From: Membranipora membranacea
Lineage: Eukaryota; Bryozoa; Gymnolaemata; Cheilostomatida; Membraniporidae
Direction: 5' to 3'
NCBI GenBank assembly: GCA_914767715.1
Contig: OU612067.1
Location: 25,892,162-25,956,161, forward strand
DNA length: 64,000 nt
Shown here: in pieces, positions 2,714 through 59,160 of the stretch
Position numbering within the stretch: position 1 is the first letter of the stretch
Layout: every line of letters begins with the position of its first letter
Position numbers and translations under genes: made by a program
Notes under the pieces: model-generated
Databases searched by the model: none
Told to the model about the DNA's origin: nothing
The model's input: only the letters and a program-made list of their open reading frames with translations

Positions 2714-2854
2714 CACTCAGGTAGGTTTTCAAGACCACACGAGCTCACATGTAACTCTCTCAGTGATCTCAGCTCACACAGCCACTCAGGTAATGTGTGT
2801 AGAGCTCCATTCCATGATACATCTAATACCTCCAGCTGAGTCAGTGACCTGATA
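2714..2854 (-). CDS. LRR cassette exon in block 1
   Basis: 141 nt, phase 2 to 2, GT-AG, fully open. It encodes IRSLTQLEVLDVSWNGALH and, in the second repeat, LRELHVSSCGLENLPEW. The corresponding position in block 2 is the 14387-14247 exon. It is the last gene A exon visible before the left edge. Confidence 0.7.
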
Positions 2855-11800: not shown

Positions 11801-14800
11801 CACCGGTTTTACCCAGTTTTAGTGGTCATATTTAGAAATAAGAAGGTATTTTATTCACACATTAGATTTATGTGGAGATAACTCCTATTCTGACCTATGC
11901 ACTACAGAGAAAAAGTGAATAGCGCAGTAACGTCGCGTCACTGAATTAGAGAGGACACTGAGCATGTATCAAATAGCCAATTGTTTCCAGTCTAGAGTAT
12001 TTATATGTTTATGGTTACATCAATTCACTCCATTAATAAAGGGGCATACTCGGATTGAATTCATTATAATTTCCAACTGATCAGAGATAGCTGAATAAAT
12101 TTTTCAATTATCATTCTCTAGACACTTATAAAGATTTCTGCTGATTCAGTTTATCTGACAGGTCCATAGATAATTGAAAAAAAAACCTTTCAAGATGACA
12201 AACACAAAAAATTAATGTAATGCCATGACGTTGCGCTATTGGCAGCACATCAACAATCTGGGTAAATGATTTTTAATTCCTATGCAAAGCTAATGGTATC
12301 AGGAAACTATATCCAGGGTATTAGCTCTAAATATTGAAAAATTTAATCACAAGTTAAAGATATGTTATGAAAGGGTGATGATGGAAAAAGTTATCCCCCC
12401 TGATTAACATGAGTGAAATTCCATAAAACCCCCCTTGTGATTCCTGTTCTGAGGGTGGAATATAAAAATATAACACTTAAACTCAATAATGTATGAAACT
12501 CAGCTTTTACAATTGTAACACAGATTTTGACCCCGGGATCCTTTATCAAACTTAGGAATTGTTTCCTCTTGTAAAGAGAAGAGACAACCGCTTAAAATCA
12601 GAAAGGCAATTCGTGAAGACCAATGAGCATGAACATTAATAATTCCATTGAAGAATCTGTCCTATCAAATAAGGGTGGCCATTTATTGTAGGCCAGACAC
12701 AGATGATGTCTGGTAATCTATACTTACATAACTTGTCATTGAACTTTGCGAAGAGATTTCCGAGTGCCAAATGGGATTTCGGCAAACAAAATTAATAAAC
12801 ACCTTTAGAACAAAAAATATCAACCTGATTTTAAGTAATCGTCCTATTCTTCCAAATCACTTTGAAGTTCATCAGACGACATCTGAAACTGAATCTCATG
12901 AAGATGAGAGGAGTTAAGAAATTAAGTGTATGAATTCAAAGCATCCAATTTTGAGAGATACAGCAGAAACTCATTTAAAACGACTTAGAGGGGTTCAATT
13001 ACTTGTAATGACAGGTCTTCTAAAAGTGAATCTTAGTGACCATAAAATTCTTTGTTTTCAAAAGTCAACATTTACAAAAAAGGGATAAAGAGGCACATTG
13101 CAGAGAGATGATTAATGCATGTCTTCTTGTTTACAAGAAAAGGCAAAGCTGTGATCTATTTCTATGAGAATTGTACCACATGCGCACTGTACTCGCTGTC
13201 TACCGGGGGGGGGGGGGGGCATTGGGCTCTTCGCCAGCTTCACTAGGAATAAGGCTAAAGATCTGCCCACTCTCCTCAGAACTCACACTGTATTGGTGAA
13301 ATTAATACTGATTGAATGCAAAATATTATTTACAATAATTCATTATTGTGGGGATATGGCTAAATGGGTAAATCACTTGCATGGATGACGGGAGGTGGGA
13401 AAATGACATTGAGAAGTTTTCCTATACTATATACTAACTAGAAATGCAGGGGTGTATACTAAGAGATGTAATAGAGATGTAAATAAAATCTGGCTTCACC
13501 GGGATTCGAACTCAGGCCTCTCTTGCAAAGCCATCTAATCCAGGTGTTCAAATATAATGATGTAGTGGGTGTAAGTAGTAAAAAATAGAAAAGTTAACCT
13601 CATAGTAGTGGTGTAACTCCTCCTTTGTCATTATGATCTAAGAGCCAATTTGGCTTCACCAAGAATTAAACTTGGGTTTCTTGCGCTGTGATCGAGCACA
13701 CTAGCCACTCAGCCACGTCTGCCCACTGGTGCTCACGGATTTAAATTGAATATGAATTGGAAAAGTAAGCTGTTGTGTAACTTTGTTAAAATTTTCTTTT
13801 TGTCAAGCTCTCATGGCAGAGATCAGGCAAAAAAAGTGTAAAATATATTATATGCATACCCTCACCTGGTTTTACCATACATTTGTTGTTGAAGACAGGG
13901 CTTTGATTCAGCCATTTCTTCTATTTTTTTAAAAACACGTTTTGAACAAGTGTTATGAGGCACTGGATATGGGTCTCTTTTATTTTATATATATATACAT
14001 TTATCATAAACACAGAACTTAAAATTTGTGGACAAGTTACCCAATGTTGTACTTAACTGTGAAGTGGTTCAGTTACAAAGTTGAATATTTAGGAGCTAGC
14101 CTGCAATAATTATGCAAGAACCAAAATTAAATCTTACAGCCTTCTAATATGAAAATGCAGAAATAAATTTACCCTTTTATGATCTTTTTTATGCAAAATA
14201 AAATTTATATTGATCATCAGACTGAGAATAGCAGGTACAGACTCACCACTCAGGTAGGTGTTTCAGAACACATAAGGCTACTATTAACTCTTTCAGTGAT
14301 CTCAGCTCACACAGCCACTCAGGTAATGTGTGTAGAGCTTCATTTTCTGATACATCTAATACCTCCAGCTGAGTCAGTGACCTGATACTGTAATATATAC
14401 ATGTATTTATATGATAATACATCATGTGAGATGAGGAGCAGGATCCACCCCATTTCTTCTATCTCATTTTCGCACCAGCCCGTTAGATAGTAACGGCTGA
14501 ACAACATTAGTAATTATTCTACAGACAGATAATTTTTAGTTTGCATCCATACTATGCAGCCTTACAATACGTCATAGCTGGCGGGAAGGCAACCTATTTT
14601 TTCATCACTTTATTTTTCAAGTTAACATTTCAAAAAATTGAAGATTATTGCAAAAATCCTTTATCAGTGACAATGCTGTAGTAATTGATAGACTGAGAAT
14701 AGCAGGTACAGACTCACCACTCAGGTAGCTGTTTGAGATCACAGTTGCTCACACGTAACTCTCTCAGAGATCTCAGCTCACACAGCCACTCAGGTAATGT

Positions 14801-17800
14801 GTGTAGAGCTCTATTACGTGATACATTTAATATCTCCAGCTGAGTCAGTGATCTAATACTGTAATATATACATGTATATATATGATAATACATCACGTGA
14901 GATGAGGAGCAGGGTCCACCCCATTTCTACTATCTCATTCTCGCACCAGGCCGTTAGATAGTCTCGGCTGAACAACATTAGTAATTATTCTTGAGACATA
15001 TAATTTTTAGTCTGCATCCGTACTATGCAGCCTTACAATAAGTCATAGCTGGCAAGAAGGCAACATAATTTTTCATCACCTTTTTTTTTTTTTAAGTTAT
15101 TTATGTATTTATTTTATGTATTTATTTTATTTTATGTAGTTATTTTAAGTTATTTATGTGATTATTTAAGTTATTTAAGCCATTTATGTCACATCATGAG
15201 AAACATTAGTAATAATGAATTGTTGCTGACACTAAAAGTATATATTTATATATAAGTTAATATATCAAAAAATTGAGGATTGAGGATTGCAAATATCTTT
15301 TATCAGTGACAATGCTGTAGTAAATAATAGACTGAGATTAAGAGATACAGACTCACTGTCAAACAACTAGCTATGACGGAATTTTCTACACTTGATTACA
15401 ACATTAGTTATCAATGGCGGATTATAATTTTATATTTGAATCCTAAAATCTTAAATTAAGACAGAAGTTTGGCAAATTCCAATGTGAAAGCTAATTTATT
15501 GGAATGTAGAAAAAAAAGATAATATAGTTATCGTTATCAACGTTAGACATTATTCTTACTTAAACTTGACAGAGTTCTCTAGTCTCAATCCTTATAACAC
15601 AGCCTTTTGATAATGTATCGCTGTGGCAAGAAGACAACCTGTTTATTCACTTTAGCTTAGTTATTTATATTTCACAGCCTCTTCAAAGGTAAGGATTATT
15701 GAAGAAATAAAAAACAAAATATGAATCGACTCGACAGACTCACCACTCAGGTAGCTGTCTGAAATCACAATCTCTAACACGTAACTCCCTCAGTGCTCTC
15801 AGCTCACACAGCCACACAGGTAATGTGTGTAGAGCTTTATTACCTGAGGATTATGCTGATTGACTTAAATTTTTTGAGCTGCCTACTCTCTGTGATTATA
15901 TATCTAAGATGTCTAAAACTGTTTTTAACAATATTGCGTCCAATGAAGACCATCCTCTTTTTAGTTGTGTTGTTTTTAACTGTGCAAAGGTATCCTCTTG
16001 CCTACATACCATCTATCGCCCACCAAAGTGCAGGACTCAAAAGCGTTTAAAGAGCTTTTTTCCTTACCACATGACAGCTTTCAACAAAGTTTAAATTTCT
16101 CATTTTCATGTACCAATCCAATATTATCGCTTGCTGATACATGGATTAAAATAATAAATCTCCCCTAACCTAACCTAATGGCTGGTTCACATTGTCCCAG
16201 ACGACCATCCCAGATAACCTAACCTAACCTAACCTAACCTAACCTGATACCTCCAGCTGAGTCAGTGAACTGATGCTGTAATAAATATACATGTATATTA
16301 ATACATAATGTGAGATGTGGAGCCAGATCCGCCCATTTCTTCTATATCATTTTCGCACCAGGCCGTTATCCCACCTCGCAATATCCCATGAAGCCATTTC
16401 CTCCCTGGATGAGTTACCATGCTGCCATTTTCCTGCTTGAACAATTTCTCACCAATCCATTTTCCACAGAGACGTTTTCAGTTTGAACTGTTTTCCGAGC
16501 AAGCCATTTTTCCTCCAAGAAAAATTCCAAATGGACTGTGTTCCCACCAAGACCATTTATCACACCATGCAGTTTTTCCGGCATCGTTTTTTTTAACATT
16601 TATTAACTGTTTTCACGTCCAGCCAACGTTGTAAAAAGAAGTTTGGGTAATGGACCTGTGAGTTGATTTCATTTTTATAGTTTGTGGATTTTGTTTTGAG
16701 TTTTCCAACGCACAAGTAATTGTACAAATGACTGATTTCAACAAGGTGGTCTCAATGTTATAAAATACTTTTTCAGCAAAAGAACTTCGTTGTGCCTATA
16801 GCCTTTTCTGTACCAATCAGAGAAGAACTGGGAGATCATATTAATGTAAGTGAATAAATTACTGACCAATGGGCAGAACATAAATTAGAACATTGGGACA
16901 TTTTTTCATATGTCATTTTGCTACTACACATTATTCAAAAGTCGTACAGCATTCTTCTAGCCGTATGACTTGCTGAAGAGATATCTTGTAAACGCTGACA
17001 AGGTTATTAGCAAAATCCCTCTATAAAATGAAGCTTACACCATGTGTGTACACTGCATGGCCTGACCATGCATGTTAAAGTTTTTCGTACTAATTTTCAA
17101 GCTATTATCAATAACCACCAAACAATGTAAAGAAAATCAAACTCTTTTTGGGGTGTGAGGCTACAATTTTTTCCGACATAATTTCATAATATTCAAGCTT
17201 TATCAAACTTTGGAATTGTTTCCTCTTGTAAAGAGAAGAGACAACCGCTTAAGATCAGAGATGCAATTCGTGAAGACCAATGAGCATGAACATTAATAAT
17301 TCCATTGAAGAATCTGTCCTATCAAATAAGGGTGGCCATTTATTGTAGGCCAGACACAGATGATGTCTGGTAAACTGTACTTACATAACTTGTCATTGAA
17401 CTTTGCGAAGAGTTTTTCGAGTGCCAAATGGGATTTCAGCAACCAAAAATTAATAAACACCTTTAGAACAAAAAATATCAACCTAATTTTAAGTAATCGT
17501 CCTATCCTTCCAAATCACTTTGAAGTACATCAGACCATTCTCCCTGATCAGACGACATCTGAAACTGAATCTCATGAAGATGAGAGGGGTTAAGAAATTA
17601 AGTGTATGAATTCAAAGCATCCAATTTTGAGAGATACAGCAGAAACTCATTTAAAACAAGTTAGAGGGGTTCAATTACTTGTAATGACAGGTATTCTAAA
17701 AGTGAATCTTAGTGACCAAAAAAACTCTTTGTTTTCAAAAGAAAACATTTACAAAAAATGGATAAAGAAGCACATTGCAGAGAGATGATTAATACATGCC

Positions 17801-20157
17801 TTCTTGTTTACAAGAAAAGGCAAAGCTGTCATCTATTTCTATGAGAATTGTTCCACATGCGCACTGTACTCGCTATCTACCGGGGGCCCTTGAGCTCTTC
17901 GCCAGCTTCACTAGGAGCTAGGCTAAAGATCTGCCCACTCTCCTCTAGAACTCACATTGTATTGGTTAAATTAATACTGATTGAATGCAAAACATCATTT
18001 ACAATAATGAATTATTGTGGGGATATGGCTAAGTGGGAAAATCACTTGCTTGGATGACGGGACGTGGGAAAATGACATTGAGAAGTTTTCCTATACTATA
18101 TACTAACTGGAAATGCAGGCGTGTATATTAAGAGATGTAATAGAGATGTAAATAAAATCTGGCTTCACCGGGATTTGAACTCAGGCCTCTCGCGCAAAGC
18201 CATCTAATCCAGGTGTTTAAATATAATGATGTAGTGGGTGTAAGTAGTAATAAATAGAAAAGTAAACCTCATAGTAGTGGTGTTACTCCTCCTTTGTCAC
18301 TATGGTCTAAGAATCAATTTGGCTTCACCAAGAATTAAACTTGGGCCTCTTGAGCTGTGATCAAGCACACTAGCCACTCAGCCACGCCTGCCCACTGGAG
18401 CTCACGGATTTAAACTGAATATGAATTGGAAAAGTAACCTGTTGTGTAATTTTGCTAAAATTTTCTTTTTTTCAAGCGTTCATGGCAGGGGTCAGGCAAA
18501 AATAGTGTAAAATATATTATATGCACACCCTCACCTGGTTTTACTATACATTTGTGGTTGAAGACAGGGCTTTGATTCAGCCATTTCTTCTATTTTTTTA
18601 AAAACACGTTTTGAAAAAGTGTTATGAGGCACTGGATACGGGTCTCTTTTATTTTATATACATATACATTTATCATAAACACAGAACTTAAAATTTGTGG
18701 ACAAGTTACCCAAAGTTGTACTTAACTGTGAAGTGGTTCAGTTACAAAGTTTAATATTTAATAGCTAGCTGGCAATAATTATGCAAGAACCAAAATTAAA
18801 TCTTACAGCCTTCTAATATAAAAATACAAAAATAAATTTACCCTTTTATCATCTTTTTTGTCCAAAATAAAATTTATATTGATCATCAGACTGAGAATAG
18901 CAGGTACATACTCACCACTCAGGTAGGTGTTTCAGATCACATAAGGCCACCTTTAACTCTCTCATTGATCTCAGCTCACACAGCCACTCAGGTAATGTGT
19001 GTAGAGCTTTGTTATATGATACATCTAATACCTCCAGCTGAGTCAGCGACCTGATACTGTAATATATAATATAAGCTGATTGGTGTATTTATACACAATT
19101 GTATGAATATTGGTTTAATATTTCACTCGCCTGACAAAAAATGGGATCAGGGAAGAATATCCTCTATCACAGTGTCTCATACATGTTCATACTCTCTAAA
19201 CATGATTGTGATCTATACGAGCTTGTAATCTCTAACCAAAAAGTTTGAACTATGGCGAAACGGCAGAAAAATAAGTTTTCAATACGGTTCATTTGTGTGT
19301 TTTGGAGAGAATGTCATCTCAAAAAGCAGAGTTGACTCCGCAATGAGATAACTCACTTCTGTAGCTGACCACTGTTTGTTATTTCTCTCAGTGTGATCTC
19401 TCTCAGGTTAGCGGCTATCTTATCTAGGTTTGGTGGGATATCACCCTTAATGTACATGTGTGTGATCTCCAGGTCTTGTGTAGCTGCTGATAACTCATCA
19501 GGTGTATATGATGTGAGATCTCTATCTCTTATAATGGGGATGGAATCGATGTCTGGCTCTGAGGTATGACGGTACCAGATCTCATACTTAGAACCTGTAA
19601 AAGTGAGTCAATATATCACTGATTGGGATAGCAAGACTACAAATAATTCATACAATGAAACATTTCAAAATTAAAATTTTTGCCAAGCGATCTGTTGGTT
19701 ATTTCCACATCAACCACGGAGAGACAACTCACAATATTGATTTTGGATAAGCATAAAAATCTAAATTAAACTCAATATCAGAGCGGGGAGTTTGGGACCA
19801 AACTCCCTGATCAGAGCCACCTGATGTTTCTCTTCTTGTAGTTGTGCCTTCAAACGGTTGCTAGTATGTGGTATCCGTTAGCAAAGTTTGATTATGTCAT
19901 ACCACAAATTTGTACTCCCAACAGTGTGGGCAGTAGTGGCACTAGTGTCACTGGTGATTATTATAATCCAGCATTATAATCAATCAAATATACAGTAGAC
20001 TTCATAGGTTATTATCATACTCACCAGTGGCTCTACTGTCAACATGATCTCCTCTCTGGTTATGTGTTCCAAAATATTTCTCCATAATACCTCAATCTGT
20101 CATCTAATAATTGTGGCTATCTGATTGTGACAGTGAGTGCCAGGTACATTCTGAAAT
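2714..20157 (-). CDS. Gene A: 5' part of an LRR-array gene (probable LRR-Roc-COR-caspase family), continuing past the left edge
   Basis: The gene reads leftward from a start codon at 20085-20083. An in-frame TGA lies just upstream, and a 5'UTR acceptor-like site sits at about 20158. Coding exons seen: 20085-20025 (phase 0 to 1), 19594-19357 (1 to 2), then 141-nt LRR exons 19056-18916, 14858-14718, 14387-14247 and 2854-2714, all phase 2 to 2. Two further LRR exons (16275/15744 and 4640/3709) are split by a LINE insertion. All junctions are GT-AG, mostly GTGAGT donors, and phases agree throughout. About 100 unique N-terminal residues precede the LRRs; I recognise no domain in them and see no signal peptide, so the product is probably intracellular. 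No Roc, COR or caspase exon is visible here; they would lie beyond base 1. The family assignment rests on the LRR cassette shared with gene B. Introns are full of duplicated repeats. Confidence 0.7.
3809..4141 (+). mobile_element. 5'-truncated LINE 3' end inserted in an LRR exon (block 1)
   Basis: Starts abruptly after the target duplication ACCTGA and contains an open frame (3870-4055) ending RTQKPLKSFFPYHMSAFNKV then stop. This resembles the C-terminus of a non-LTR retrotransposon ORF2 (basic RTxxxKxSFxPY pattern). It ends ATTAAAATAATAAACC followed by CCTAAC repeats. The 5' truncation, target duplication and simple-repeat tail are typical of target-primed reverse transcription. Copies with the same breakpoints lie in blocks 2 and 4. 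Confidence 0.65.
4144..4537. mobile_element. TA-flanked MITE nested in the LINE tail (block 1)
   Basis: About 394 bp with terminal inverted repeats: ATGGCTGGTTCACATTGTCC at the left and its near complement GGACAATGTTCACCAGCCAT at the right, flanked by TA (4142-4143, 4538-4539). The interior is built of short inverted CCCAGA/TCTGGG motifs. TA target and no coding capacity fit a Tc1/mariner-type MITE. The CCTAA tail supplied the TA target. A second inverted stretch follows at 4543-4580. Confidence 0.6.
4660..5430. repeat. Block-terminal repeat with a minus-strand open frame (block 1)
   Basis: Repeated at 16290-17228 and 59468-60330. The stretch 4745-4965 is made of imperfect short repeats (CCATTTTCC, CCACCAAGA, CCTCCAAGA). 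It happens to leave minus-strand frames open: 5113-4580 here, and shorter ones at 16599-16414 and 59702-59517, sharing GLGGKTVHLEF-like text. Frames differ in length between copies and I recognise no domain, so I treat this as a repeat and not a gene. Confidence 0.5.
5899..6604. mobile_element. Solo LTR
   Basis: 706 bp beginning TGTTG and ending CAACA, flanked by the 5-bp duplication CAAAT (5894-5898 and 6605-6609). The uninterrupted site is visible at 60850 (GTTGCAAATTTAAGTG). It contains a TATA-like CCTATATAAATG near 6262 and a polyadenylation-type AAATAAAG near 6381, in the order expected of an LTR on the plus strand. No internal retrotransposon sequence remains. It is unrelated by eye to the LTRs at 42328 and 49546. 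Confidence 0.75.
6977..7339 (-). pseudogene. Non-LTR retrotransposon reverse-transcriptase fragment
   Basis: The minus-strand frame contains FLSGRKQR, VPLGSVIESPLF, YYINDLPENTK and LFADDI. This is the usual order of LINE reverse-transcriptase motifs, with the catalytic FADD box. The rest of the enzyme is missing on both sides. The frame breaks right after the FADDI box into unrelated glycine-rich text. The same fragment recurs at 62994-62704. Confidence 0.7.
7340..8603. other. Interior of element R2, no gene recognised
   Basis: Matches 62995-64000 closely. Plus-strand frames such as 7218-7541, 7684-8040 and 8063-8365 are also open in the R3 copy, but with frame differences and no recognisable domain. 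The part 8604-9308 repeats 1-720. Confidence 0.4.
9317..9855 (+). repeat. Left terminal inverted repeat
   Basis: Complementary to 12013-11475. The outermost 30 bases agree without mismatch, and differences accumulate inward. Homology fades near CTTTGCTCTTC. Confidence 0.75.
11475..12013 (-). repeat. Right terminal inverted repeat
   Basis: Complement of 9317-9855; see the transposon entry. It includes the shared AATAGCGCAGTAACGTCGCG stretch in inverted orientation. Confidence 0.75.
13205..13219 (+). repeat. G15 homopolymer
   Basis: Fifteen consecutive G in block 2, where blocks 1 and 3 have CCGGGGGCCC at the same place (about 1869 and 17880). The run is therefore a local expansion or an assembly error in this block. 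Confidence 0.9.
13494..13725 (-). repeat. Pair of tRNA-derived SINE units (block 2)
   Basis: Two tRNA-like units on the minus strand. The unit at 13725-13649 starts with an A-box-like GTGGCTGAGTGGCTAG and contains a B-box-like AAGTTTAATTCTTGG. The unit at 13549-13494 contains GAGTTCGAATCCCGG. Both end in GGTGAAGCCA. The dimeric layout suggests a composite SINE rather than functional tRNA genes, since neither folds with intact acceptor stems by eye. Confidence 0.55.
14247..14387 (-). CDS. LRR cassette exon in block 2 (second intact)
   Basis: 141 nt, phase 2 to 2, acceptor TATTACAG, donor GTGAGT, fully open. It encodes IRSLTQLEVLDVSENEALH, LPEWLCELRSLKEL and LKHLPEW. It lies about 330 bp downstream of the previous cassette on the minus strand. 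The short intron between them carries a repeated segment (14480-14640) also found at 2930-3040 and 58500-58660. Confidence 0.72.
14718..14858 (-). CDS. LRR cassette exon in block 2 (first intact)
   Basis: 141 nt, phase 2 to 2, GT-AG, fully open. It encodes two LRRs (IRSLTQLEILNVS... then LRELRVSNCDLKQLPEW). It has the same length and borders as the other cassette exons but different residues at the variable positions of the second repeat (VSNCDLKQ against VALCVLKH in its neighbour). Phase symmetry means it can be included, skipped or duplicated without changing frame. Confidence 0.72.
15744..16275 (-). pseudogene. LRR cassette exon in block 2, split by a LINE insertion
   Basis: The 5' half (16275-16248) and 3' half (15847-15744) of one LRR exon are separated by about 390 bp of LINE 3' end plus CCTAA-type tail. 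The target-site duplication ACCTGA is at 15842-15847 and 16242-16247. The 3' half is still open and ends at a normal GTGAGT donor. The 5' half has also lost 9 bp. Because a normal cassette is phase 2-2, skipping this exon would leave the transcript in frame. Confidence 0.7.
15848..16241 (+). mobile_element. 5'-truncated LINE 3' end with CCTAA tail (block 2)
   Basis: The same insertion as 3809-4141, with the same 5' breakpoint and the open frame 15909-16094 ending YHMTAFNKV. The tail has CCTAAC repeats and a roughly 55-bp remnant (GGCTGGTTCACATTGTCCCA...) of the MITE seen in block 1, then more CCTAAC repeats before the ACCTGA duplication. Confidence 0.65.
18160..18396 (-). repeat. Pair of tRNA-derived SINE units (block 3)
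   Basis: The same dimer as 13494-13725: minus strand GTGGCTGAGTGGCTAG at the start of the upstream unit, B-box-like AAGTTTAATTCTTGG, then a second unit with GAGTTCAAATCCCGG. It is in the intron following LRR exon A3 and predates the block duplications. Confidence 0.55.
18916..19056 (-). CDS. LRR cassette exon A3 (two LRRs)
   Basis: 141 nt, phase 2 to 2, acceptor TATTACAG and donor GTGAGT. It encodes IRSLTQLEVLDVS, then LHTLPEWLCELRS, then a final LKHLPEW. This is two leucine-rich repeats of about 23-24 residues with the LxxLxxLxVxxN and LPxxL signatures. It is the LRR exon nearest to exon 2, and AA plus T makes an Asn codon at that junction. It lies in block copy 3, whose SINE and intron sequence match the other blocks. 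Confidence 0.75.
19357..19594 (-). CDS. Gene A exon 2, N-terminal region of unknown fold
   Basis: 238 nt, phase 1 to 2, acceptor TTTTACAG and donor GTGAGT. It encodes about 79 residues containing YEIWYRHTSEPDID and, toward the end, LEITHMYIKGDIPPNLDKIA. The latter looks like a capping segment leading into an LRR domain (hydrophobic residues alternating, IPPNLDKIAANLREITLREI-like spacing), but I cannot name the domain. It has no second copy in the window, unlike the LRR exons. It is fully open and its phase fits the downstream LRR exon. Confidence 0.6.
19786..19807. repeat. Short palindrome GGGAGTTTGG..CCAAACTCCC
   Basis: 10-bp perfect arms with a 2-base centre, in the first intron of gene A. 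The same GGGAGTTTGGGACCAA core occurs at 52255-52292 with longer arms. Confidence 0.6.
20025..20157 (-). CDS. Gene A exon 1 (5'UTR and start codon)
   Basis: ATG at 20085-20083 opens 20 codons beginning MEKYFGTHNQ and ends with one spare G at a GTGAGT donor. In-frame TGA lies four codons upstream, which favours this ATG. The 5'UTR part may begin at 20157 after an AG at 20159-20158. The spare G joins exon 2 (which starts GT TCT AAG) to make GGT, so the phase fits exactly. No hydrophobic leader is present. Confidence 0.6.
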
Positions 20158-41908: not shown

Positions 41909-42244
<336 letters not shown>

Positions 42245-43351: not shown

Positions 43352-43468
43352 GCCTTTGGCGTCCTCAGGTGGGCATAATTACAAAGGTACGGAGGTTATC
43401 GTTGGTGCGGACTCGACGATACCCGCCCTCAGCCAGGTCGCTTATTCGAACAATCCACTACCGTCAGT

Positions 43469-44548
43469 TTGACGGACCTGTCAGCCAATTTATCAGCTTC
43501 CATTGAGTGGAATCATGGCGAGATGATGGCGGCCATGGAAAGAAATAAGGCACATACAAAAGAAATACAGGAATACATGGATAGACGGATGACTGACCTG
43601 TCATCCATAGTATATGGGTTAGCTAGTGCTGACCATCAGCAGTCGCCTATCCGTAGAGAGCCTGACACCGTTTATCATACTCTTGCACCTAGTTCTGCGA
43701 GTCAGCGTCCCGTGCCTGCTCCTAGGAGACGGCCATGTGAAATTCCAGTTGTTGACCTGCCAAGAAGAGCCAGAGCTTGTAAACCACTTGGCGACAAGCC
43801 TAAGTTTAATGGTTCCGGTGATCTCACCGTATTCAAACTGTTGTTTGCTGAATGTGTAGAGCTAAACGGCTGGGAGGATGAGAAGATCATCACTCTATGG
43901 CTTAAACAGTGCCTAACTGGTGCTGCTAAAGAGTGTATCCTCTATGAGCAGGTCTCAGATTCCGGGACAGTATTTGAAAAATTAGAGCACAGATATGGTA
44001 ACCATTTATTGGTGCAAAAATATACAGTGTTGCTAGATAGCCGGAAAAAGGGGCAGCATGAGTCCATCTCCGACCTAGCCAATGACATAAGGAAGATGGT
44101 AGAAGTTGTCTATCATGACTGTGACAAATTTACAAGGGAGAAAATTACCATCAGTAATTTCATTCGCTCCTTGCCCAGTGTACATATCAAGTACGAGCTG
44201 AATCGGGAGTGCCCGAAAACTCTTGAGGAGGCCGTACAGAGAGCTGCCATCCATGATGTATGGTACGGTTATGACTCGCATTTCAGGTGTAATCAGAGTC
44301 AAATATCTCAGTCTCCTAGATCCTCACTAGTTGTGGCACTGTCTACAATATAGCAAAAGAAAGTATCACCTCCTATCCCAACCGCTGGTACTCAACCAAG
44401 AATAACACAACAGTGTAAACACTGTGGTGCGGCTCATATGCCATATGTGTGTCAGCCTTGTCGACACTGTGGAGGCCCCCACTTTGATAACAAGTGTGAG
44501 CGCCAGGCAAACGGGTTGCCCATTCCCGGACAATCAATCAGGCAGTAA
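43469..44548 (+). pseudogene. gag-like region of the Ty3/gypsy element
   Basis: Open 43469-44350, then TAG (44351-44353), then in the same frame open to TAA at 44546-44548. The first part has the FNGSGDLTVFKLLFAECV and LTGAAKECI text typical of a Ty3 capsid. After the TAG come two zinc knuckles, CKHCGAAHMPYVC and CRHCGGPHFDNKC. Both are C-x2-C-x3-H-x4-C, one residue shorter than the usual C-x2-C-x4-H-x4-C. A start is unclear; the first in-frame ATG is at about 43523, though the frame is open upstream. Confidence 0.75.
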
Positions 44549-44582
44549 TAGGGAATGGGACTCAGAAACATAAACTGTCTGA

Positions 44583-45768
44583 AAAGCCAACTAAGGAATT
44601 ATTGTATCAACATGGCTATGATGTGACAAAAACTGATATGTTTGAGGTCACCTCACTGAAACCTGCTAACATTGTTAGAAGAGTTATACAGGTACTCACC
44701 TTGCCATATAGTGGACCAGCAAAGGTCACACAGTTCTGTATTCCTAGTATACATGATACTTCAAAGACTCGCTTAGTTGATCATGGTCTTGGTACTTCAG
44801 TATCTCAGCAGTGAGCTCAGTCTAAAAAGGTAAACATTGAACCGGCCATTGCTATGGTTAGTGAGATGGGATCTAAGCTAGCAGAATTAGAATTGGAGTC
44901 TAGCAACACAGGTCCATCTCAAGGTTATGTTATACCAGATAAGAGTGAATTACCTTCCGCAGAGTTATTGTATCAAAAAGGCTACGAAGTGACAAAAACT
45001 GATATGTTTGAGGTCACCTCATTGAAACCTACTAATATTGTTAAAAGAGTAATACAGGTACTCACTTTGCCTTATAGTGGTCCTGCAAAGGTCACCAGGT
45101 TTCATGTACCCAGTAGGTACGACTCTTCAAGTAGTCGATTAGTAGATCCTGATATGGATAACCCAGTAGTTCAGCAGTACGCTCCGTCTGACAAAGTAAA
45201 CATTGAACCGGCCATTGCTATGGTTAGTGAGATGGGATCTAAGCTAGCAGAATTTGAATTGGAGTCTAGCAACACAGGTCCATCTCCAGGTTATGTTATA
45301 CCAGATAAGATTGATTTACATGCATCAGGTTTAACTCTTGAAAAAGAGGAGACAACTCTGAACTTATTATTAGAAGTATTACCATATCAGCAATCAGATC
45401 CTTCTGATGATCAATTAATCGATGTAAGCAGAATACGTCGATCAGATTTATACTCACCTTATGTACCGGTTGAGGTAAATGGGTACAAAACTGTGTTTTT
45501 GCTTGACACGGGTGCTACCACCTCCATATTGAGTAAAGTACATGCTATCAAGCTAGGTATCCTAGATGGTCAGTGTGAACCTGGAAAACCGAAGGGTAAA
45601 TCTGCAACTGGCAGTCCTATATCTTGTTATGGCCAGCATGAGGTGAATGTCAAGTTGGGCAGTGAAAACTTGGTAGGACTTATGGAGGTGACTGACATTA
45701 CTGAAAATGGTTTCATTGGCATGGATTTTCTGGTGGCATCTGGATGTGTACTGGACCTTATGAAATGA
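44583..45768 (+). pseudogene. Linker duplication and aspartic protease region
   Basis: A 366-bp segment is repeated in tandem and in frame (from 44599 and from 44965). Both copies carry DMFEVTSLKP and VLTLPYSGPAKVT and end GYVIPDK. A TGA at 44812-44814 interrupts the first copy. Downstream, FLLDTGATTSILSK is the retroviral-type protease active site (DTGA) and ENGFIGMDFL its flap/second motif. The protease itself is intact in this frame. Confidence 0.75.
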
Positions 45769-46103
45769 ACCTCGGCAATCTATACCTCTAGTGAACAGTA
45801 GTGGTAACAGGCTAGCGTGTGCATGCTACTCAGCTCGGTCAGTGACCATTGAGGTCTACTCAGAAAGAGTTATACCTATGTATGCTCACACCACCATAGA
45901 AGGCGGAGGACTCATAGAGCCAAACTTCAGGGTAGTCGATTCGTACAATCTAATTGCATCAAGATGCTACGTGAATCAGTGTTTGGTACTCAGAGTTGCC
46001 AACGTAACCGCAGAAGCCATCCACATTGCCCAAGACACACCAATAGCTTTCCTCACTGATGGAAACATTATTGACATACATGAACCTGAGGTACTAGACT
46101 GGA

Positions 46104-48013
46104 ATGGCACAACCATCCAGAATTGTGATGTCACAATTGACTCAGAACCGGTCTTACCAGACCATGTCAAAACCCCTATTCGACACCTTACCTGAATATA
46201 TCTCAGTTGACAGTAAGTCAAAGATGAGACAACTCCTCGTAAAATATCAGGATGTGTTTTCTAAGGATGCATATGACATGGGTTATTGTGATCTGGTTCC
46301 CGATGGAATCACGCTCAAACCTGGCACCCAACCAATCAGGCTCCCTCCATATAGAGTAGGATATCATGCTATCCTAGAAATAGAAAAGCATGTAGATGAA
46401 CTATTGAAAAAGGGCATCATTGAACGTACCTACAGTGTCACCATATAGTGCTCCTGTTTTACTGATAGCTAAGAAAGATGGAACCAGTCGGTTTGTCCAG
46501 GACTACCGCAAGCTAAATAAAGCAACTTATATTCCATCACAACCCCTACCACGTATTGATGACTCATTAGAGGCACTGAGAGGTGCAACTCTTTTCAGCA
46601 CATTTGACCTTTTATCGGGTTATTGGCAGTGCTCCCTAAGCCCTGACGCTAAGGAAATGGTAGCTTTTTGCACCAAAAGCGGAGTCTATACATGGCGTGT
46701 ACTCGGTATAGGATTGTGTGGTGCAATGGCAATCACTACTAGTGTATCTCGACGACATAATTGTCTTCAGTTCAGATGAAGAAACACATCTGACCAGGTT
46801 GGATACCATGTTGGAGTGGCTGCAAAAAGCCAATCTAAAAATCAAAGTGTCTAAGACACATTTACTCAAACAGGAAGTTGAGTTTTTGGGCCATATTTTT
46901 AATCAGGATGGCATTCATACAGACCCAGCCAAAGTAAAGGCAATTCAGGAAGTGTCCACTCCTACCTGCATAAAAGAGCTGAGAAGTTTCCTTGGTCTCA
47001 CAGGGTATTACAGGAAGTTTGTGGAGAGGTTTGCAGAGATTGCTGTCCCTCTGTTCGACCTGTTGAAAAAGAAAAACCAGTCAAGGAAACTTGCATGGAA
47101 TGAGGAATGCCAAAATGCATTCCAGACATTAAAGGACAGTTTAGCGAGTTTCACATCTCTGTCATTCCCAGACTGGACAATACCTTTCATTTTGGACACT
47201 GACTGTAGTGGTGAAGCTATGGGAGCTGTACTGGCTCAGATTGATAAGGATGGGGATGAAAAACCCATCGCATTCTTTAGTAAAAGACTCTCAGATAGTC
47301 AAAAGAAATATCCAGTGACTAAACAGGAAATGCTAGCACTAGTGTCTGCCGTAAGATATTTCCATACATACCTGTATGGGTCAGAATTTGTATGTCGAGT
47401 TGACCATCACTCTCTGATATGGTTACACAATCTCAAGAATCCACAGGGAATTCTAGCCAGATGGTTGGAGGTCCTGGGATCATATAAATTTGATGTGATT
47501 CATAGACCAGGTCGCCAGCACTCTAATGCTGATGCTTTATCTCGACTTCCTTCAGCATCGCAGCAACCTCTCAGCGAGGAACCTGAGGATGAATGTGGTT
47601 TCACATTCCGGTCAGTTGACTTCTCCGTTGGTCTATCCACGGATGAACTAGTGCTGGCTCAAGCTGAAGATCCACATCTCATGCCTATCATTCAGAGTCT
47701 AAAAGAGAATAAAAGTATATCACATAAGAACTGCAAGCAATTACCTCGAATTACTCGATTCTATATTGGTAAAGTGCCCTCAATGAAATTCCAGAACGGT
47801 ATATTAATGATCACCACTCATCCTGAGAACGAAGATAAAATCTTGGTGCCGGAGTATTACCAGGCAAAGCTGATAAAGTCGTTCCATGAGATGGATCACA
47901 GTGGCATGGACAGGACGGAATCAAGGCTCAGATTATATTATTACTGGCATGGCCTGCAGGCTGATGTCAGATTATTCGTGCAATCATGCACAAGTTGCCA
48001 AAGGATTAAGTGA
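46104..48013 (+). pseudogene. Reverse transcriptase and RNase H region
   Basis: Frames 46104-46448, 46420-46779 and 46718-48013 together hold the Ty3-type RT: APVLLIAKKDGTSRFVQDYR, FSTFDLLSGYWQ, then VYLDDIIVFSSDEE with the catalytic YLDD box, FLGHIFNQDGI and SFLGLTGYYRKFVE. RNase H follows with LDTDCSGEAMGAVL and HSNADALSRL. The normal 20-odd residues between GLC and the YLDD strand are lost and the frame shifts there (about 46720), so no full enzyme can be made. The final part runs into the integrase zinc-binding HHCC segment and ends at TGA 48011-48013. Confidence 0.85.
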
Positions 48014-49044
48014 CTAGAAATCAAATCGACCATCAGAATCTAGTAGTAGGGACCATTATGGATCAGGTGAGCCTTGATTTCATTGGTCCCCTACAACGGA
48101 CAACGAATGATAACACATACATATTAATGGCCGTAGAGCACTTTTCTCGTTGGGCAGAGGCATATCCTCTTGCCCAACCTGATGCCGAGTCCTGTGCTAA
48201 AAGTTTATAGAAGGGCCTGTTTGCCAATTTTGGCTATAGTCGAGTGCTGCATTCTGACCGTGGCAGCGCCTTCATCTCTGAGCTGATGAAAGAGCTGAGC
48301 AATCTGGGCCAGTGTAAACAAACATTCTCGGCAAGGTATCATCCAATGGGTAACTCCTATGCAGAACGAGTGATTGGGACGGTTACATCGCAGTTACGTA
48401 CCTGTGTTGAGCATACCCAACTAGAGTGGGATGATCTCCTAGATACGGTAATATCCGCCTACAGAGCCACTCCTCACTCTGCTACGGGGTTCTCCCCAAA
48501 CATGGTTATGTTAGGCAGAGAGGTGAGACTTTCAGCTGTGCTCTGTCCTCCAGGTGACAATATACCTGTAACAGATTACGTACGGAAGCTAAATGAAAAG
48601 ATAAAGTATGTTTACAGCAAGTGTCTGGGGGCCCCAAACGTACAAATTGAGGGTTATGACCACTTGATACACACCCCTCTAAAGGTCGGTGATCAAGCGC
48701 TGGTCAAAAAGATAAATCCCTCCAATATGGAAACAAAATTTAGTGGACCTCACTCTATCATTAAAGTACTAGATTTTGACACCTATGTACTATCAGAGAA
48801 GGGAAAGGAGGTGATAGAGCATCACAGCAGATTGAAATTATATAATCCTAACCCGACTGAAGTTGAACCTGACCTGGGTGACTTCATGTCTCAGCATGGG
48901 ATGGACCAATCAGATGATGATCTTATCCTAGATCCAGATGATCTGGGTGATGACTTCATGACTACAACTACAACCCAAGATAGATATAACTACTATGACA
49001 ATATGGTGTCCCCAAGCCAAGGCCTATCATACAGCCTGATGTGA
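47880..49044 (+). pseudogene. Integrase region
   Basis: The HHCC zinc-binding part (HEMDHSGMDRTESRL ... CTSCQRIK) lies at the end of the RT frame, followed by TGA. The DDE core continues in frames 48010-48210 and 48244-49044: LDFIGPL, HSDRGSAF and NSYAERVIGT give D, D and E. A TAG (48208-48210) separates the first D from the second. The C-terminal part VGDQALVKKINPSNMETKFS is the usual post-core GPY-like module. Confidence 0.8.
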
Positions 49045-53358: not shown

Positions 53359-53736
53359 TCACTTTGTACTATAACCAAGCTTCTGAAGAAGACTTTCCTT
53401 AGTAGACTTATTGTTACACTTTGTAGTGTCTCGTTTGTCTACTGCTGGATGGAGTATGAGCATCTTCTGCAGAGTGCTTCGTACTTCTGGGTCCTGGCTG
53501 TAACCTTTCTTCTTCATACACCAGATTGCATTCGTTGTCATGTCATGCATTGATGTTTTGCCATCAGCTTGCTTAATCTGATCAGCAATAGCACCAAGGA
53601 ATGCTCCTCTTTCTGACATTCCTCCAACTACTGTTGAAATCAATAACAGAGTGTGCGCCCTGTCCAGTACTATGCTATTTCGCTGGCTGGTGGAGAGTCC
53701 AGAATATACAGGTTGACAAGCCTGAATTATGACCAC
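53359..53736 (-). CDS. Gene B terminal exon: caspase catalytic Cys and p10-like part
   Basis: 378 nt, phase 0, acceptor TTTTACAG, to TGA at 53361-53359. It encodes VVIIQACQPVYSG: Cys codon 53718-53716 in the QACxG-type motif, with Pro replacing Gly. Then follow a short linker without an obvious cleavage Asp cluster, LLLISTVVGGMSERGAFLGA (p10 strand and S1-pocket region) and a helical end. A basic tail KRDTTKCNNKSTKESLLQKL follows. Cys and His are both present, so activity is possible. Confidence 0.85.
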   Translation of the reverse strand: MVIIQACQPVYSGLSTSQRNSIVLDRAHTLLLISTVVGGMSERGAFLGAIADQIKQADGKTSMHDMTTNAIWCMKKKGYSQDPEVRSTLQKMLILHPAVDKRDTTKCNNKSTKESLLQKLGYSTK

Positions 53737-56700
53737 CTGTAAAATTCAATCATAGATATGTGTTGAATTTGCAAAGTCTTCAGACTCAGACATCGTAGAG
53801 GTAAGATCTAAGTCGAAGTGATAACTAAAAGTCTCAAACACAGGGGAGAACGATTAACGGATAGTAACGTTGTAACTAATTTGTACTTTGATCCACACAG
53901 CGGATATCCTGGTGCTATCTCCAGAATATCCAGTTATGATCCAATCTATGTAATATACATTCTAAGATAAACCTCACATTAACCTACCAATGGGATGTTT
54001 GCAGGTAGCCTCGCCTTCAGCAGATCTAGAATATTCGATATCGGCATTTTAGAGTCATTGGCACCTGCTAGATTTCCGGCTTCTCCGTGTGACATCAGCG
54101 AGACAACAAGTAGTGAGAGGCCTTCAGATAGCAGCTTACTGAGCACACTATTGATGATTGGAGGTAGCGTCTTCGCATCAGTCCATTTGAATAAGCTGGT
54201 CGTGATCCCAACATGTGTTAAGCTGTCTCTGATGGCGTTTGCCTCCTCAGTAGCACCCTTTCTCTGATCTGTGCTATACAGCACTAATCCACATGGCTTT
54301 ACATGAGTCTGCTTGATTGGTATGATGTACTGATCACTTCTATCAAAGAGCAGACTAATATCTTCTGTGTTTAGTGGGTGTTTCTCTACAAGCTCCTTCA
54401 GTGTCTTCGCCTCACCTGATCAAAAACACATCATTCAAATGATAGTTTTAGCCAGTTATATACTTCGTATAGCTCATCTGGGCATGGCCACAGTATAATA
54501 AGCGTATAATTCTCAGTTTTTTATTTTTTTATCAAAATTGAAGACTGGACGAGATATTAATCGCAGGGTACGATCAACATTGCTGCCCTTAATGCTGTAC
54601 ATATTTTATGCATATTTTAAACTTACTTGATAAGTTGATGTTTGAAACATACTGCTTGAGCACATCCTGTCCCTTTTCAACAACGTCTGAACCTGAAATG
54701 GAGATAATTGGGTGTTTAAAGCTGCTGATAGAGAGACCAAATATTCATTGATTCATTGTGAAGAGTGAGCAAAGCTTAGATACGTGTTAACACATCGATA
54801 CTAAAGTGGAACACCGGAGCCACTCCCATAAACCTTACATGTTCTCTATTTCATTCTAGTTCTCGTTCTAAAAATCGGCCCAGGGAGTGTGAAAATGAAG
54901 ACCAATTACATTTTAGTGCAAAAATATAGATCTTTTAGCACTCATGTCGGAATAAATCAGTAAATTTCGATACTCTTCAGGTATATTTGATTCATGAATA
55001 TCTACTCACATGGATACCTCAGCGGTGTTGGGATATCAGCATCTTGTGCACAGCTGAAAACCTCATCCCCACTGTAGATGTTACGAGCTGGTTCATTGGC
55101 TGCTAGAGTTTCTGTTTGGGACCAGGAGGGATCCACTTCTGTATGAGGAGACGGGTTGCTTGTAAGTAAGCAATGTGAACAATAGAAAACAGTCTCATAA
55201 CGCACTCCTTTCCAAACAGATTTCAGCTCAGCAATCAGCTGTTGAAGAGAAGCCAGTTGTTTTGTCCAAGCCTCAGTGACGTTTTTAGGAAGAGCGAGAG
55301 TCAGTAGTGTGACACGGTTGTCAGAAGCATTGTGCAGCAGGTATTTCTGTATTCTGTTGCTTTGGGATACAAAAGCACCATTAGTACCAACAGCAGGAGA
55401 AGAGAATGGCTCGGAATTTTTATCCAGATATGCCGCTGTGATTAGTGAGAACACGTGGCCTGGAACTTTAAAACCACGCAGGTATAGATCTACTTTAAGA
55501 GGTATACGGTTAGCAAAATCCCCTGGCGCTTTGATCTTTCTAGTGGCAAAGTATGGTATGATGTATTTCTGATCACATGGTCTAGCATCTGGCCCACATA
55601 GATGGACTAGGTGAAATGATCTCAGAATTTCCACTGCAGCATCAGCTGGTAGTTGTGATTCATTCTCCAACATATTTACGAGTAAAGCTGCTTCCATGAC
55701 CCCAGACCTATTGTAAGTCGTTATCATATCCTGATATTTATATTCTCCTATTGACTTGCCGTCATGTTCAAAAGGGATAAAGTTATCCAAACGGGTCGAC
55801 CAGTCTTTATCATGGGTGTGGCTATAGAGGATTTCTATCAGGCCAGTTATGATCTGGTGGCGGTGGAAGACATAACAGGAGAGCTTAGGATTGTTTTTGA
55901 ACCACATCAGTCGTCCGATTTCATGTAGATATTCCAGGGTCACGTGATCAGGGTCATTGGGGAACTTGATATCAATCTCTGAAAGTTTGATAAACGGCTT
56001 GGTTGTTTCTGACTCGATATCAACAAGCATAACATACCAGCTGCCAGGTATTTCAGTATTCAATACGGCGCCTACAGCTACCAGCATTTCTTTAAGTGAG
56101 TCAATATCAGGTTTAGATGATTTGGTCGAGAAACCTGAAATCATATTAACCCTTATCAGAAGCTCTGAAATGTCAGTGAAGCTTTTCATGATGAAAATTG
56201 GACTCAGGGATGATGCCACATGTGTTTCGGACTTGATTATTTTGTGGCGTAATTTCTCGGTTGTGTCAATAAGCTGCTGTTTCCTCAGATTGTAGCACTC
56301 ATCAGATATCTTATCACAGTGAGTTAGAACTACTACTGGTCGACAGAGAGTAGGACAAGCTATGTACATGTGGGACAGCCAGTCGAGGCAAACATCCTGA
56401 CATGCAGCTTCCTCTCCCTGCTGTACTACTAATCTGTCAAACTCTGCAATGTCTATCACAAGGAGTGGAACACTTTGCGACTTAAATGACAATTGGTAGG
56501 CAAAGTTATAGATTTTATGCCCTCCAAAGTCAACAAAGACCAGCTTAGTGTTTTGGTCTACAGCTGCCTCACAGACTTTGAATACTTTGGTAGCCTCATC
56601 TAACATCCCTCCAGTAGATAGTCGTGATGTGAGTACTCTTTTGTTCTGCTGAACACTCTTCACTAGACTTGTTTTCCCTGCTTCACTCTTTCCGATAACA

Positions 56701-57421
56701 GTCACAGGTATGAATCGCAGATTACTACCTTTTTCCAATTTTAGGTCTGAATAGTATTTTCTCACAGCAGACAACCCCAGTCTGCAGACAGCATATGGAG
56801 GAGATGTTAGTGCATTACAGCCAACACAGTCAAAAGTCGTGAGTGTTTTGATGCTGAACAGGCTCTCAGGTAGTGTGGTGAGTGATGAGTTTTTACCGAT
56901 ATTCAGTGTACGAAGGTTACTCAGCTCTCCTACGCTGCAATAATAAATTATATTTATTACTTAACGAGAAAAATCTACGATCTTCACTGTGTATGTATTT
57001 TTTACTTGCTGAACAAAGATCTCCATTTGCATTAGCATCATTCAAACTCTTTTGCTTTTTTGTTCTTTATTTGTCGGATAACCATGTTTGGTTATGGCAG
57101 GTAGTAATGAGTCAGAAAATATACTTAAGACTGTCCGCTATATCTTTAGTCCTTAATTTAGCATATTGCCGAATCCTGGTGTCAAGTTCTCAAACTCCTA
57201 CTCATTAATTTATGAACCCGATTTAGCTGGCAATTGCCAATAAAACCTTCAGGTGGTAGTGGGTAGACAACTAGCGCTAGAACAGAGGGGATTCTCACTC
57301 TCCCCTAAATCCCCTAAATACCCTAAATTCCATTAGATCAGCAGTTGTAAGTTTTATTAACAAAGTCACAAAAAACCCTCCCATTACAATATACCTATAT
57401 ATACTTTAACTTGCAAACAGA

Positions 57422-57452
<31 letters not shown>

Positions 57453-58025
57453 CTCTACTTCTCGGCAGACTAACCACATACATTAAATGCAGTCAGAGCC
57501 ATTTTGATATTTGGCCATATTTGATTTGCAATTTAGTAGATGGCTAAATTTAAACTGTGACCAACTAGTAAAAAATTATAATATTTCTTGATATTAGTAT
57601 ATACCAGTTCATCATGTCATGTGAGATGTGATGATGACCATTGTAAATAAATTATATTGTTTATCAAAAACGCAAATTACTCAATATTACATTTTATGTT
57701 GATGTACTTGCAGTATCTTTTTAATACATTTATCTAAAGTGATGAAATGATATTTCAACCAAAATTTCATTAGCCATAGAATGACTTCCTTGTGATCCAA
57801 TGTACATCTTTCATCAAAAAGATTTGATAGGTAAATGTTAGATTGATTTGCAGATTCAGACTAAGTATAGGATGTCACACTCACCACTCAGGTAGGTGTT
57901 TGAGACCACAGTTGCCCACACATAACTTTCTTAGAGATATCAGCTCACACAGCCACTCAGGTAATGTGTGTAGAGCTCCATTAAATGATACATTTAATAT
58001 CTCCAGCTTAGTCAGTGATCTAATA
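53359..58025 (-). CDS. Gene B: LRR-Roc-COR-caspase protein (3' part of gene)
   Basis: Exons 58025-57885 (LRR cassette), 56934-55010, 54692-54627, 54415-53988, 53736-53359 (TGA). All are GT-AG with agreeing phases, giving about 978 residues. Order: LRRs; Roc GTPase with P-loop GKSEAGKTS, DFGGHK and LTHCDK; a COR-like region; a short linker; then a caspase-like protease whose p20 part carries the catalytic His in SLMSHGEAG and whose last exon carries the catalytic Cys in VVIIQACQP, followed by a p10-like part. Roc-COR is the ROCO family (LRRK, DAPK1, MASL1), which normally ends in a kinase or no enzyme. A caspase end is unusual. Gene B probably starts beyond the right edge, or from LRR exons lost in block 4. 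No lesion is seen in these exons. Role inferred: GTP-switched protease. Confidence 0.8.
53988..54415 (-). CDS. Gene B exon: caspase-like p20 part
   Basis: 428 nt, phase 1 to 0, acceptor TTGATCAG, donor GTAGGT. It starts with about 40 linker residues, then CGLVLYSTDQRKGATEEANA (first beta strand and the position where caspases bind substrate), ITTSLFKWTDAKTLPPII and LLVVSLMSHGEAGNL. His at codon 54089-54087 is the catalytic His of the C14 fold. It ends at IPL before the Cys strand, as caspase genes often have an exon border there. Confidence 0.85.
54627..54692 (-). CDS. Gene B small linker exon
   Basis: 66 nt, phase 1 to 1, acceptor ATTTCAG, donor GTAAGT. It encodes SDVVEKGQDVLKQYVSNINL, probably a helix linking COR to the protease. 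Its phase fits both neighbours; being a multiple of three it could be skipped. Confidence 0.7.
55010..56934 (-). CDS. Gene B large exon: last LRRs, Roc GTPase, COR
   Basis: 1925 nt, phase 2 to 1, acceptor TTATTGCAG, donor GTGAGT, 641 codons with no stop. Residues 1-53: two diverged LRRs (VGELSNLRTLNIGKNSSL, LPESLFSIKTLTTF). About 75-235: Roc. The P-loop GKSEAGKTSL is at 81-90, a switch-I-like TGGMLDEATK follows, DFGGHK is at 135-140, and LTHCDK at 203-208 stands in for the NKxD base-recognition motif. About 260-520: COR-like, with hydrophobic helices and LMWFKNNPKLSCYVF. The last 100 residues are less conserved. Roc-COR proteins dimerise through COR and cycle with GTP. Confidence 0.85.
57424..57451. 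repeat. (AT)n microsatellite
   Basis: About 14 AT/TA dinucleotides in the intron between the gene B LRR exon and the Roc exon. The rest of this roughly 950-bp intron holds nothing recognisable. Confidence 0.9.
57885..58025 (-). CDS. Gene B LRR cassette exon (two LRRs)
   Basis: 141 nt, phase 2 to 2, acceptor TATTACAG, donor GTGAGT, fully open. It encodes IRSLTKLEILNVSFNGALH, then LPEWLCELISLRKLCVG and LKHLPEW. It is the same cassette as in gene A, and its TG end joins the C at the start of exon 56934-55010 to give a Cys codon. Confidence 0.75.
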
Positions 58026-58723: not shown

Positions 58724-58827
58724 CACTCGGGTAGCTGTCTGAGATCACAGTCTCTCACATCTAACAATCTCAGTGCTCTCAGCTCACACAGCCCCTCAGG
58801 TAATGTGTGTATAGCTCTATTAACTGA
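58724..58827 (-). pseudogene. 3' half of an LRR cassette exon (block 4), 5' half lost
   Basis: About 100 nt encoding IHTLPEGLCELRALRLLDV and LRQLPEW, with the usual GTGAGT donor. It ends at the same LINE junction (AACTGA at 58822-58827) as the split exons in blocks 1 and 2. The exon's 5' half and acceptor are missing, because the following MITE is truncated at about 59467 and runs straight into later block sequence. The surviving half is open but has no acceptor. Confidence 0.65.
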
Positions 58828-59160
58828 GGATTATGCAGATTGACTTGAATTTTAAGAGCTGCCTACTCTCTGTGATTTTATTTCTGAGATGTCTAAAACT
58901 GTTTTTAACAAAATTGCGTCCAATGAAGACCATCCTCTTTTTAGTTGTGTAGTTTTTAACTGTGCAAAGGTATCCTCATGTCTACATACCATCTATCGCC
59001 CACCAAAGTGCAGGACTCAAAAGCGTTTAAAGATCTCTTTTCCGTACCACATGTTAGCATTCAACAAAGTTTAAATTTCTCATTTTCATGTACCAATCCA
59101 ATTTTAACGCCTGTTGATACATGGATTAAAATAATAAGCCTAACCTAACCTAACCTAACC
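58828..59160 (+). mobile_element. 5'-truncated LINE 3' end (block 4)
   Basis: The third copy of the insertion that splits the LRR cassette. The open frame 58889-59074 ends YHMLAFNKV. It is followed by four CCTAAC repeats and then a truncated MITE. The identical 5' breakpoint in all three copies means one insertion, copied later by block duplication. Confidence 0.65.

Follow-up and report, generated by a model that had tools for sequence, protein, structure and literature searches.

Leucine-rich repeats, a Roc GTPase domain and a caspase joined in one predicted protein recur across the genome of the bryozoan Membranipora membranacea

Results

Gene structure and domain content

The window analysed here is a 64,000-nucleotide (nt) stretch of the Membranipora membranacea genome (C3:25892162-25956161), and its minus strand carries a gene whose predicted product joins leucine-rich repeats (LRRs), a Roc GTPase domain, a COR region and a caspase (Peptidase_C14) domain in one chain. 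A sequence-only reading had placed such a gene at 53359-58025. That range is exact for five minus-strand exons (E1 to E5; Table 1) that join in phase, and their borders follow AG|..|GT throughout except at the last end. Once joined, the five exons can be read through in one of the three frames, which gives 978 codons and closes on a stop. The range does not hold the whole gene, which is incomplete at its 5′ end: the first 156 residues of the joined chain contain no Met, and beyond the window, 9.3 kb upstream of E1, there is another intact LRR exon (L029:3320-3183). Between residue 468, which falls within the COR region, and residue 818, the spliced protein contains no Met, and the first strand of the caspase (GLVLY) is already reached at residue 753; the caspase is therefore not an AUG-started gene of its own.

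Table 1. Exons, domains and LRR cassettes of the window (positions in the window; all on the minus strand).
Feature	Positions	Strand	Basis
E1, LRR cassette exon, two LRRs, phase-2 symmetric, 141 nt	57885..58025	(-)	AG..GT borders, frame, Pfam LRR
E2, last LRRs, Roc and COR in a single exon, 1925 nt	55010..56934	(-)	Pfam; aligned with 12 paralogous exons
Roc GTPase domain; G1 GKSEAGKTS, G3 DFGG; G4 LTHCD further on at 56327-56313	56433..56705	(-)	Pfam Roc E=4.2e-6
COR region, approximate extent; conserved C-x-H-C motif near end	55010..56300	(-)	weak COR-A matches, position
E3, linker exon, 66 nt, without Met	54627..54692	(-)	frame; short counterpart in L039; 75-nt exon similarly placed in L021
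E4, pre-caspase stretch and part of caspase large subunit, 428 nt; SHGE at 54092-54081	53988..54415	(-)	Pfam C14
E5, QACQP with catalytic Cys at 53724-53710, small subunit with SERGAF, 378 nt including stop	53359..53736	(-)	Pfam C14; homologues L039-L043
Intact LRR cassette exon, 3′ of window gene	2716..2853	(-)	
Intact LRR cassette exon, 3′ of window gene	14249..14386	(-)	
Intact LRR cassette exon, 3′ of window gene	14720..14857	(-)	
Intact LRR cassette exon, 3′ of window gene	18918..19055	(-)	
Decayed type-B LRR exon remnant, out of frame with the only near acceptor	58726..58824	(-)	

The domain assignments were checked against Pfam, whose curated cut-offs in bits are 21.4 for Peptidase_C14, 27 for Roc, 30.1 for LRR_13 and 35.3 for COR-A. 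The last two exons match Peptidase_C14 (46 bits, E=6.8e-12, residues 759-946), Roc scores 27.4 bits (residues 124-214), and the LRRs at the start of the protein match LRR_13 with 30.8 bits. Roc, C14 and LRR_13 thus clear their thresholds, and COR-A falls below its own. The motifs on which the gene had first been recognized, GKSEAGKTS, DFGGH, THCDK, SHGE and QACQP, are all present as claimed. Among the 978 residues, which begin inside the gene, Pfam returned no kinase or death domain at E<=1 and no NACHT or NB-ARC match; the protein would work, at most, like an NLR.

Conservation of the Roc-COR exon was assessed in an alignment of 13 such exons, comprising that of the window and 12 paralogues (A1). 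The residues of G1, G3 and G4 are mostly invariant or nearly so, and C585, H587, C588 and C628 (exon numbering) are invariant. All 13 exons match Pfam Roc at E<=0.01, and seven match COR-A at this threshold (best relative, E=2.8e-5). A profile built from A1 matches chains of the Chlorobium Roco protein (CtRoco) with E of about 1e-16, in the Roc part only (profile positions 40-160), and LRRK1 chains with E=1.4e-5 (positions 4-98). Because these structure-profile matches span Roc and not COR, and the COR-A scores of the window protein and of L021 lie under the cut-off, COR is assigned here from its position and from weak matches. The spliced model of the paralogue L021 has eight exons in one frame, matches nearly the whole C14 profile (E=3.1e-28, 99.5 bits) and reaches the Roc cut-off. 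A scan of genome contigs for prokaryotic relatives of A1 gave 111 pattern matches, none of them confirmed, with two narrow patterns of low power.

Recurrence of the domain order

The single 339.3-Mb assembly of this species was searched for further examples. The counts are lower bounds, 140 of 515 first-look candidates having been scored for C14 and 150 of 372 for Roc. The genome contains at least 145 Pfam C14 exon matches, which form 134 same-strand clusters, and at least 148 Pfam Roc matches. It also contains 71 exon matches to the nuclear-receptor zinc finger (84 of 84 candidates scored), a number that does not suit a sponge, as sponges are not known to carry more than a few. When the window protein was used as a tblastn query and the 20 top distinct caspase loci were picked by caspase score alone, an LRR/Roc-COR exon was found upstream on the same strand at 14 (L024 truncated, L023 with a frame break). 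Starting instead from Roc, 34 of the 67 matches in large frames (>=350 residues) are followed on their own strand by a listed caspase, 2.1-3.4 kb away in 33 cases and 6.9 kb away in one. Among the matches listed, none of the 134 caspase clusters has a same-strand Roc downstream, and within 8 kb none has a Roc on the opposite strand. Six large-frame Roc loci with no listed caspase were fetched, and all six have a caspase at the predicted site (five window-like, one canonical). With these 34 and six loci, the eight of the 14 tblastn loci that are absent from the Roc list, and the window itself, Roc-COR followed by a same-strand caspase occurs at no fewer than 49 loci. Because dozens of paralogous loci show this order again, at comparable distances, the order in the window is more than chance, and the LRR - Roc - COR - caspase chain that had been read from in-phase exons stands.

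Two other caspase loci were noted in this survey. Caspase matches with no listed upstream Roc are dense at C1:33.2-37.1 Mb, perhaps marking another expanded caspase family, and L020 (C4:11392800-11402700) carries a window-type-like caspase without Roc-COR, in an open frame whose upstream stretch looks ankyrin-like by eye and Pfam gave C14 only.

Two types of caspase

The SHG, QACQ and Arg of RGAF are kept at all six window-type loci examined, as is the Arg of GLVLYSTDQR (R73), which is also invariant in the five rows of the caspase alignment A2. By sequence alignment, we take R73, the Gln of QAC and the Arg of RGAF to be the Arg/Gln/Arg positions of the S1 pocket that confer specificity for Asp; all three of these putative pocket residues are present in the six window-type open reading frames.

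The Roc-COR tree groups the window with L011, L021 and L026 (support 99/98, 13 rows, L023 and L024 left out). The caspase of L021 is canonical (SHGDEG, QACAG), whereas the caspase end of the window protein is only 22% identical to it, and the intron that precedes QAC in the window follows it in L021. A caspase tree was computed from five of the six window-type and nine canonical rows (L043 and several canonical loci were dropped). In it, the five window-type caspases group together (95/97) and lie nearer two non-ROCO caspases (92/94), a placement that carries a long-branch warning. For comparison, L018 and L021 share 42% and 59% identity in their two caspase exons and 32% in the Roc-COR exon. 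In the window subfamily, a different caspase type thus seems to have taken the place of the original module; module exchange would be the simplest account, with fast evolution as the alternative. Altered caspase motifs were also seen in L028 and L022 (QSC for QAC; GHG for SHG), which are possible altered or inactive members.

Diversification of the LRRs

Roc is conserved and the LRRs change fast. In comparisons of L018, L019 and L022, the ratio of non-synonymous to synonymous substitution rates (dN/dS) is 0.12-0.29 for Roc, 0.30-0.64 for COR and 0.94-2.84 for the LRR tail. Cassette exons encoding two LRRs in phase 2 are repeated in and around the window, and they differ mainly at eight positions of the concave face: concave codons differ by 17-54%, other exon codons by 1-6% and the downstream intron by 1-5.5%. 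In the five copies with alignable downstream introns, the excess of concave-codon differences over the intron is found in all 10 pairs, which are not independent (Fisher p 1.5e-3 to 1.1e-9); x14857 and x58024 were dropped from this test as their downstream introns do not align with the rest. Across the seven intact copies, concave positions hold a mean of 3.75 residue types versus 1.26 elsewhere, a difference reached by none of 100,000 permutations. The same eight positions hold 3.88 versus 1.52 residue types in eight cassettes of L018, L019 and L022 (p=2e-5), and 11 of the 12 usable pairs in this set have a significant concave excess, 16 of 28 pairs having been dropped for intron divergence >25%.

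A near-copy of the window gene ~236 kb away (L039+L045) shows the same division. Its Roc-COR is 96% identical to that of the window and its E5 protein is identical, and in exon 2 there are 10 differences in the first 55 residues, at the LRR end, versus 13 in the other 587, the boundary at residue 55 being our choice. The LRRs of the near-copy cannot be aligned with E1, and no figures for E1 or for E1 plus the LRR tail were used; the stretch examined upstream of its exon 2 (2.7 kb) yielded only a broken cassette fragment.

Besides the decayed type-B remnant of Table 1, others lie at 3711-3808 and 15746-15847 and at L029:4271 and L030:2474, and such remnants stand 0.8-1 kb upstream of five of the seven intact cassettes. 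This spacing suggests that a multi-exon unit was duplicated. Short runs of a GGTTA repeat occur beside LRR exons at 59130-59160 (-) and near 4600.

Other features of the window

Pieces of a Ty3/gypsy-type retroelement (aspartyl protease, reverse transcriptase, RNase H and a weak integrase) lie in successive open frames at 43379-49041 (+). An exon at 41909-42244 (-) resembles a non-canonical poly(A) polymerase, with a below-cut-off Pfam match to the MTPAP-like central domain (E=3e-4); it is presumably TENT4/PAPD5-like, and an ordinary gene may thus lie between the LRR arrays.

Discussion

We favour, at a probability of roughly two in three, the explanation that the window locus is one member of a large LRR-Roc-COR-caspase family and encodes a recognition receptor that diversifies and carries its own death protease. 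Roc-COR dimerises in a nucleotide-dependent way, and dimerisation activates initiator caspases, from which a working scheme can be drawn. The LRR region would bind a variable intracellular ligand, either microbial or one that marks self and non-self between colonies, and binding would shift the nucleotide state of Roc and the Roc-COR dimer. The dimer would in turn pair the two attached caspase domains and activate them by induced proximity, and the active caspases would cleave target proteins, leaving the cell killed or inflamed. A separate adaptor or a recruited caspase would be unnecessary. We infer an immune or cell-death role for these proteins, and the case for it is strengthened by the hypervariability of the concave LRR residues.

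Several observations weigh against this explanation. On the side of recurrence, six of the 20 top caspase loci lack Roc-COR and 100 of the 134 caspase clusters lack a listed upstream Roc (34 have one). No caspase is listed for 33 of the 67 large-frame Roc matches, only six of which were fetched, and none of the 81 small-frame Roc matches has a caspase downstream among the matches listed. The window's own Roc and caspase are missing from both genome lists, for which 150 of 372 and 140 of 515 candidates were scored. As to the domains, COR-A reaches only 13.7 bits in the window protein and 23 bits (E=8.3e-5) in L021, the fold of exon 2 predicted from a single sequence had a predicted local distance difference test score of 32.6 and was not used, and the N-terminus lies beyond the sequence covered. 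The caspase tree places L009, which is not a ROCO protein, within the canonical ROCO caspases, again with a long-branch warning. With regard to diversification, the concave positions were chosen after the window cassettes had been viewed and were then reused for the second set, in which the remaining pair is not significant (p=0.22). L021 and L026, the youngest pair, differ by 14 non-synonymous and one synonymous change in the Roc-COR exon; because their dN/dS exceeds 1 across the whole exon, relaxation is possible in some copies. Finally, the ligand, the coupling to nucleotide, the protease activity and the outcome are proposed here from the sequence of one genome.

Among the other explanations, the one that survives best is that the protein is a self/non-self receptor for colony fusion, not a pathogen receptor, whose caspase drives rejection. 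It would suit a colonial, encrusting bryozoan and would account for concave residues that are hypervariable between copies; the variation seen here, however, is between loci of one genome and not between colonies, and we consider this explanation unlikely.

Less probable again is a catalytically dead or scaffold caspase that serves as a decoy or dimer partner and not as a protease. The window caspase has QACQP in place of QACxG and a short inter-subunit linker, both of which also count against a built-in protease, and its Pfam score is about half that of the L021 model. Against this, the His, the Cys and the three presumed S1-pocket residues are kept at all six window-type loci, and E5 has the same protein sequence in the near-copy.

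It is very improbable that these are housekeeping signalling or tissue-turnover proteins, acting for example in polypide regression, with no role in recognition. Caspases serve development in many animals, but the expansion of the family, its clustering and its diversifying LRRs are not what such a role would lead one to expect.

The weakest candidate, to which we give hardly any credence, is a pair of genes always side by side, one for a ROCO protein that stops after COR and one for the caspase. Since the unspliced frame closes two codons past the E2 donor, intron retention would yield ROCO alone, and canonical paralogues have a Met just before the caspase (MTECRGRAL in L021) that would permit a separate start there, but the phases of E2-E3-E4-E5 match, the sequence beyond the donor differs by eye among subfamilies and E3 is kept in L039. 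With the absence of Met from this part of the window copy and the recurrence of the arrangement, these matching phases led us to drop separate genes as the main explanation.

The explanation of a diversifying receptor with its own protease can be carried further, although we regard the following only as a tentative and rather doubtful proposal. Bryozoans might possess a single-molecule recognise-and-kill system of dozens of ROCO-caspases. LRR cassettes lying around the genes and between them would form a hypervariable pool, and recombination, conversion or alternative splicing would reshuffle it into new specificities; the switch and protease would be fixed or exchanged as whole modules. In a bolder extension of this reshuffling, the cassettes 34-51 kb downstream could act as donors for the window gene.

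If the favoured explanation is correct, one polypeptide can unite the sensor, the switch and the executioner of an inflammasome-type pathway, with Roc-COR replacing NACHT, and a phylum whose immunity has received little study has expanded and diversified this design. The coupling of the Roc-COR nucleotide state to an effector would also become testable, with protease activity as a simple read-out.

Comparison with known systems

The supposition that no family joining Roc-COR to a C14 protease had been described stands for the open-licence papers listed in the searches, among which no description of LRR-Roc-COR-caspase proteins was found; there are two near misses, the amphioxus LRR-caspases and a sponge NLR figure legend. 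A review of ROCO proteins recognizes three groups, including those with a kinase or death domain and none with a caspase, and the word caspase is absent from its accessible text (PMC6337361). The LRR-Roc-COR group (MFHAS1, CtRoco) resembles the window protein in its LRR-Roc-COR-like order and its G1, G3 and G4 motifs, and the window protein differs by the caspase after COR. In Trichoplax, ROCO proteins carry CARD, death or TIR domains, with no caspase domain in the figure legend (PMC4104024); as described there, Roc-COR is linked to adaptor folds of cell death, which would bring in a caspase, whereas the window protein carries the caspase itself.

Parallels for single parts of the system come from more distant sources. 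The brown-algal ROCO genes are described as undergoing LRR exon shuffling with selection at concave sites (PMC11378527), and they offer a parallel for the sensor in their phase-2 LRR exons, concave-site selection and ROCO chassis. By that description they have one LRR per 72-bp exon and no effector after COR, whereas the window cassettes have two LRRs per 141 bp. In Amphimedon, likewise a sessile marine animal, the death-fold/TRADD-N proteins form a lineage-specific expansion (PMC8195603) that bears caspase or other effectors, and a caspase end is one architecture among several; they combine TRADD-N with death folds, and, unlike for the window protein, no ROCO is named in the accessible account. 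In the legend of a figure, a 2026 paper on sponge NLRs (PMC12909245) names both COR and CASc, and a related sponge protein may therefore exist.

The nearest described relatives, compared by description only, are of two kinds. The LRR-Roc-COR-TIR proteins of cnidarians (NG1 of sea anemones; PMC5094078) and of Aplysia (PMC9334734) are reported to join LRRs and Roc-COR to an immune effector, as the window protein does, theirs being TIR and that of the window a protease. The amphioxus 'shortcut' proteins, LRR-caspase and TNFR-caspase (PMC2575513), include recognition repeats set directly on an active-looking caspase (QACxG), as in the window architecture; Roc and COR, which distinguish that architecture, have 0 occurrences in the main text of that paper.

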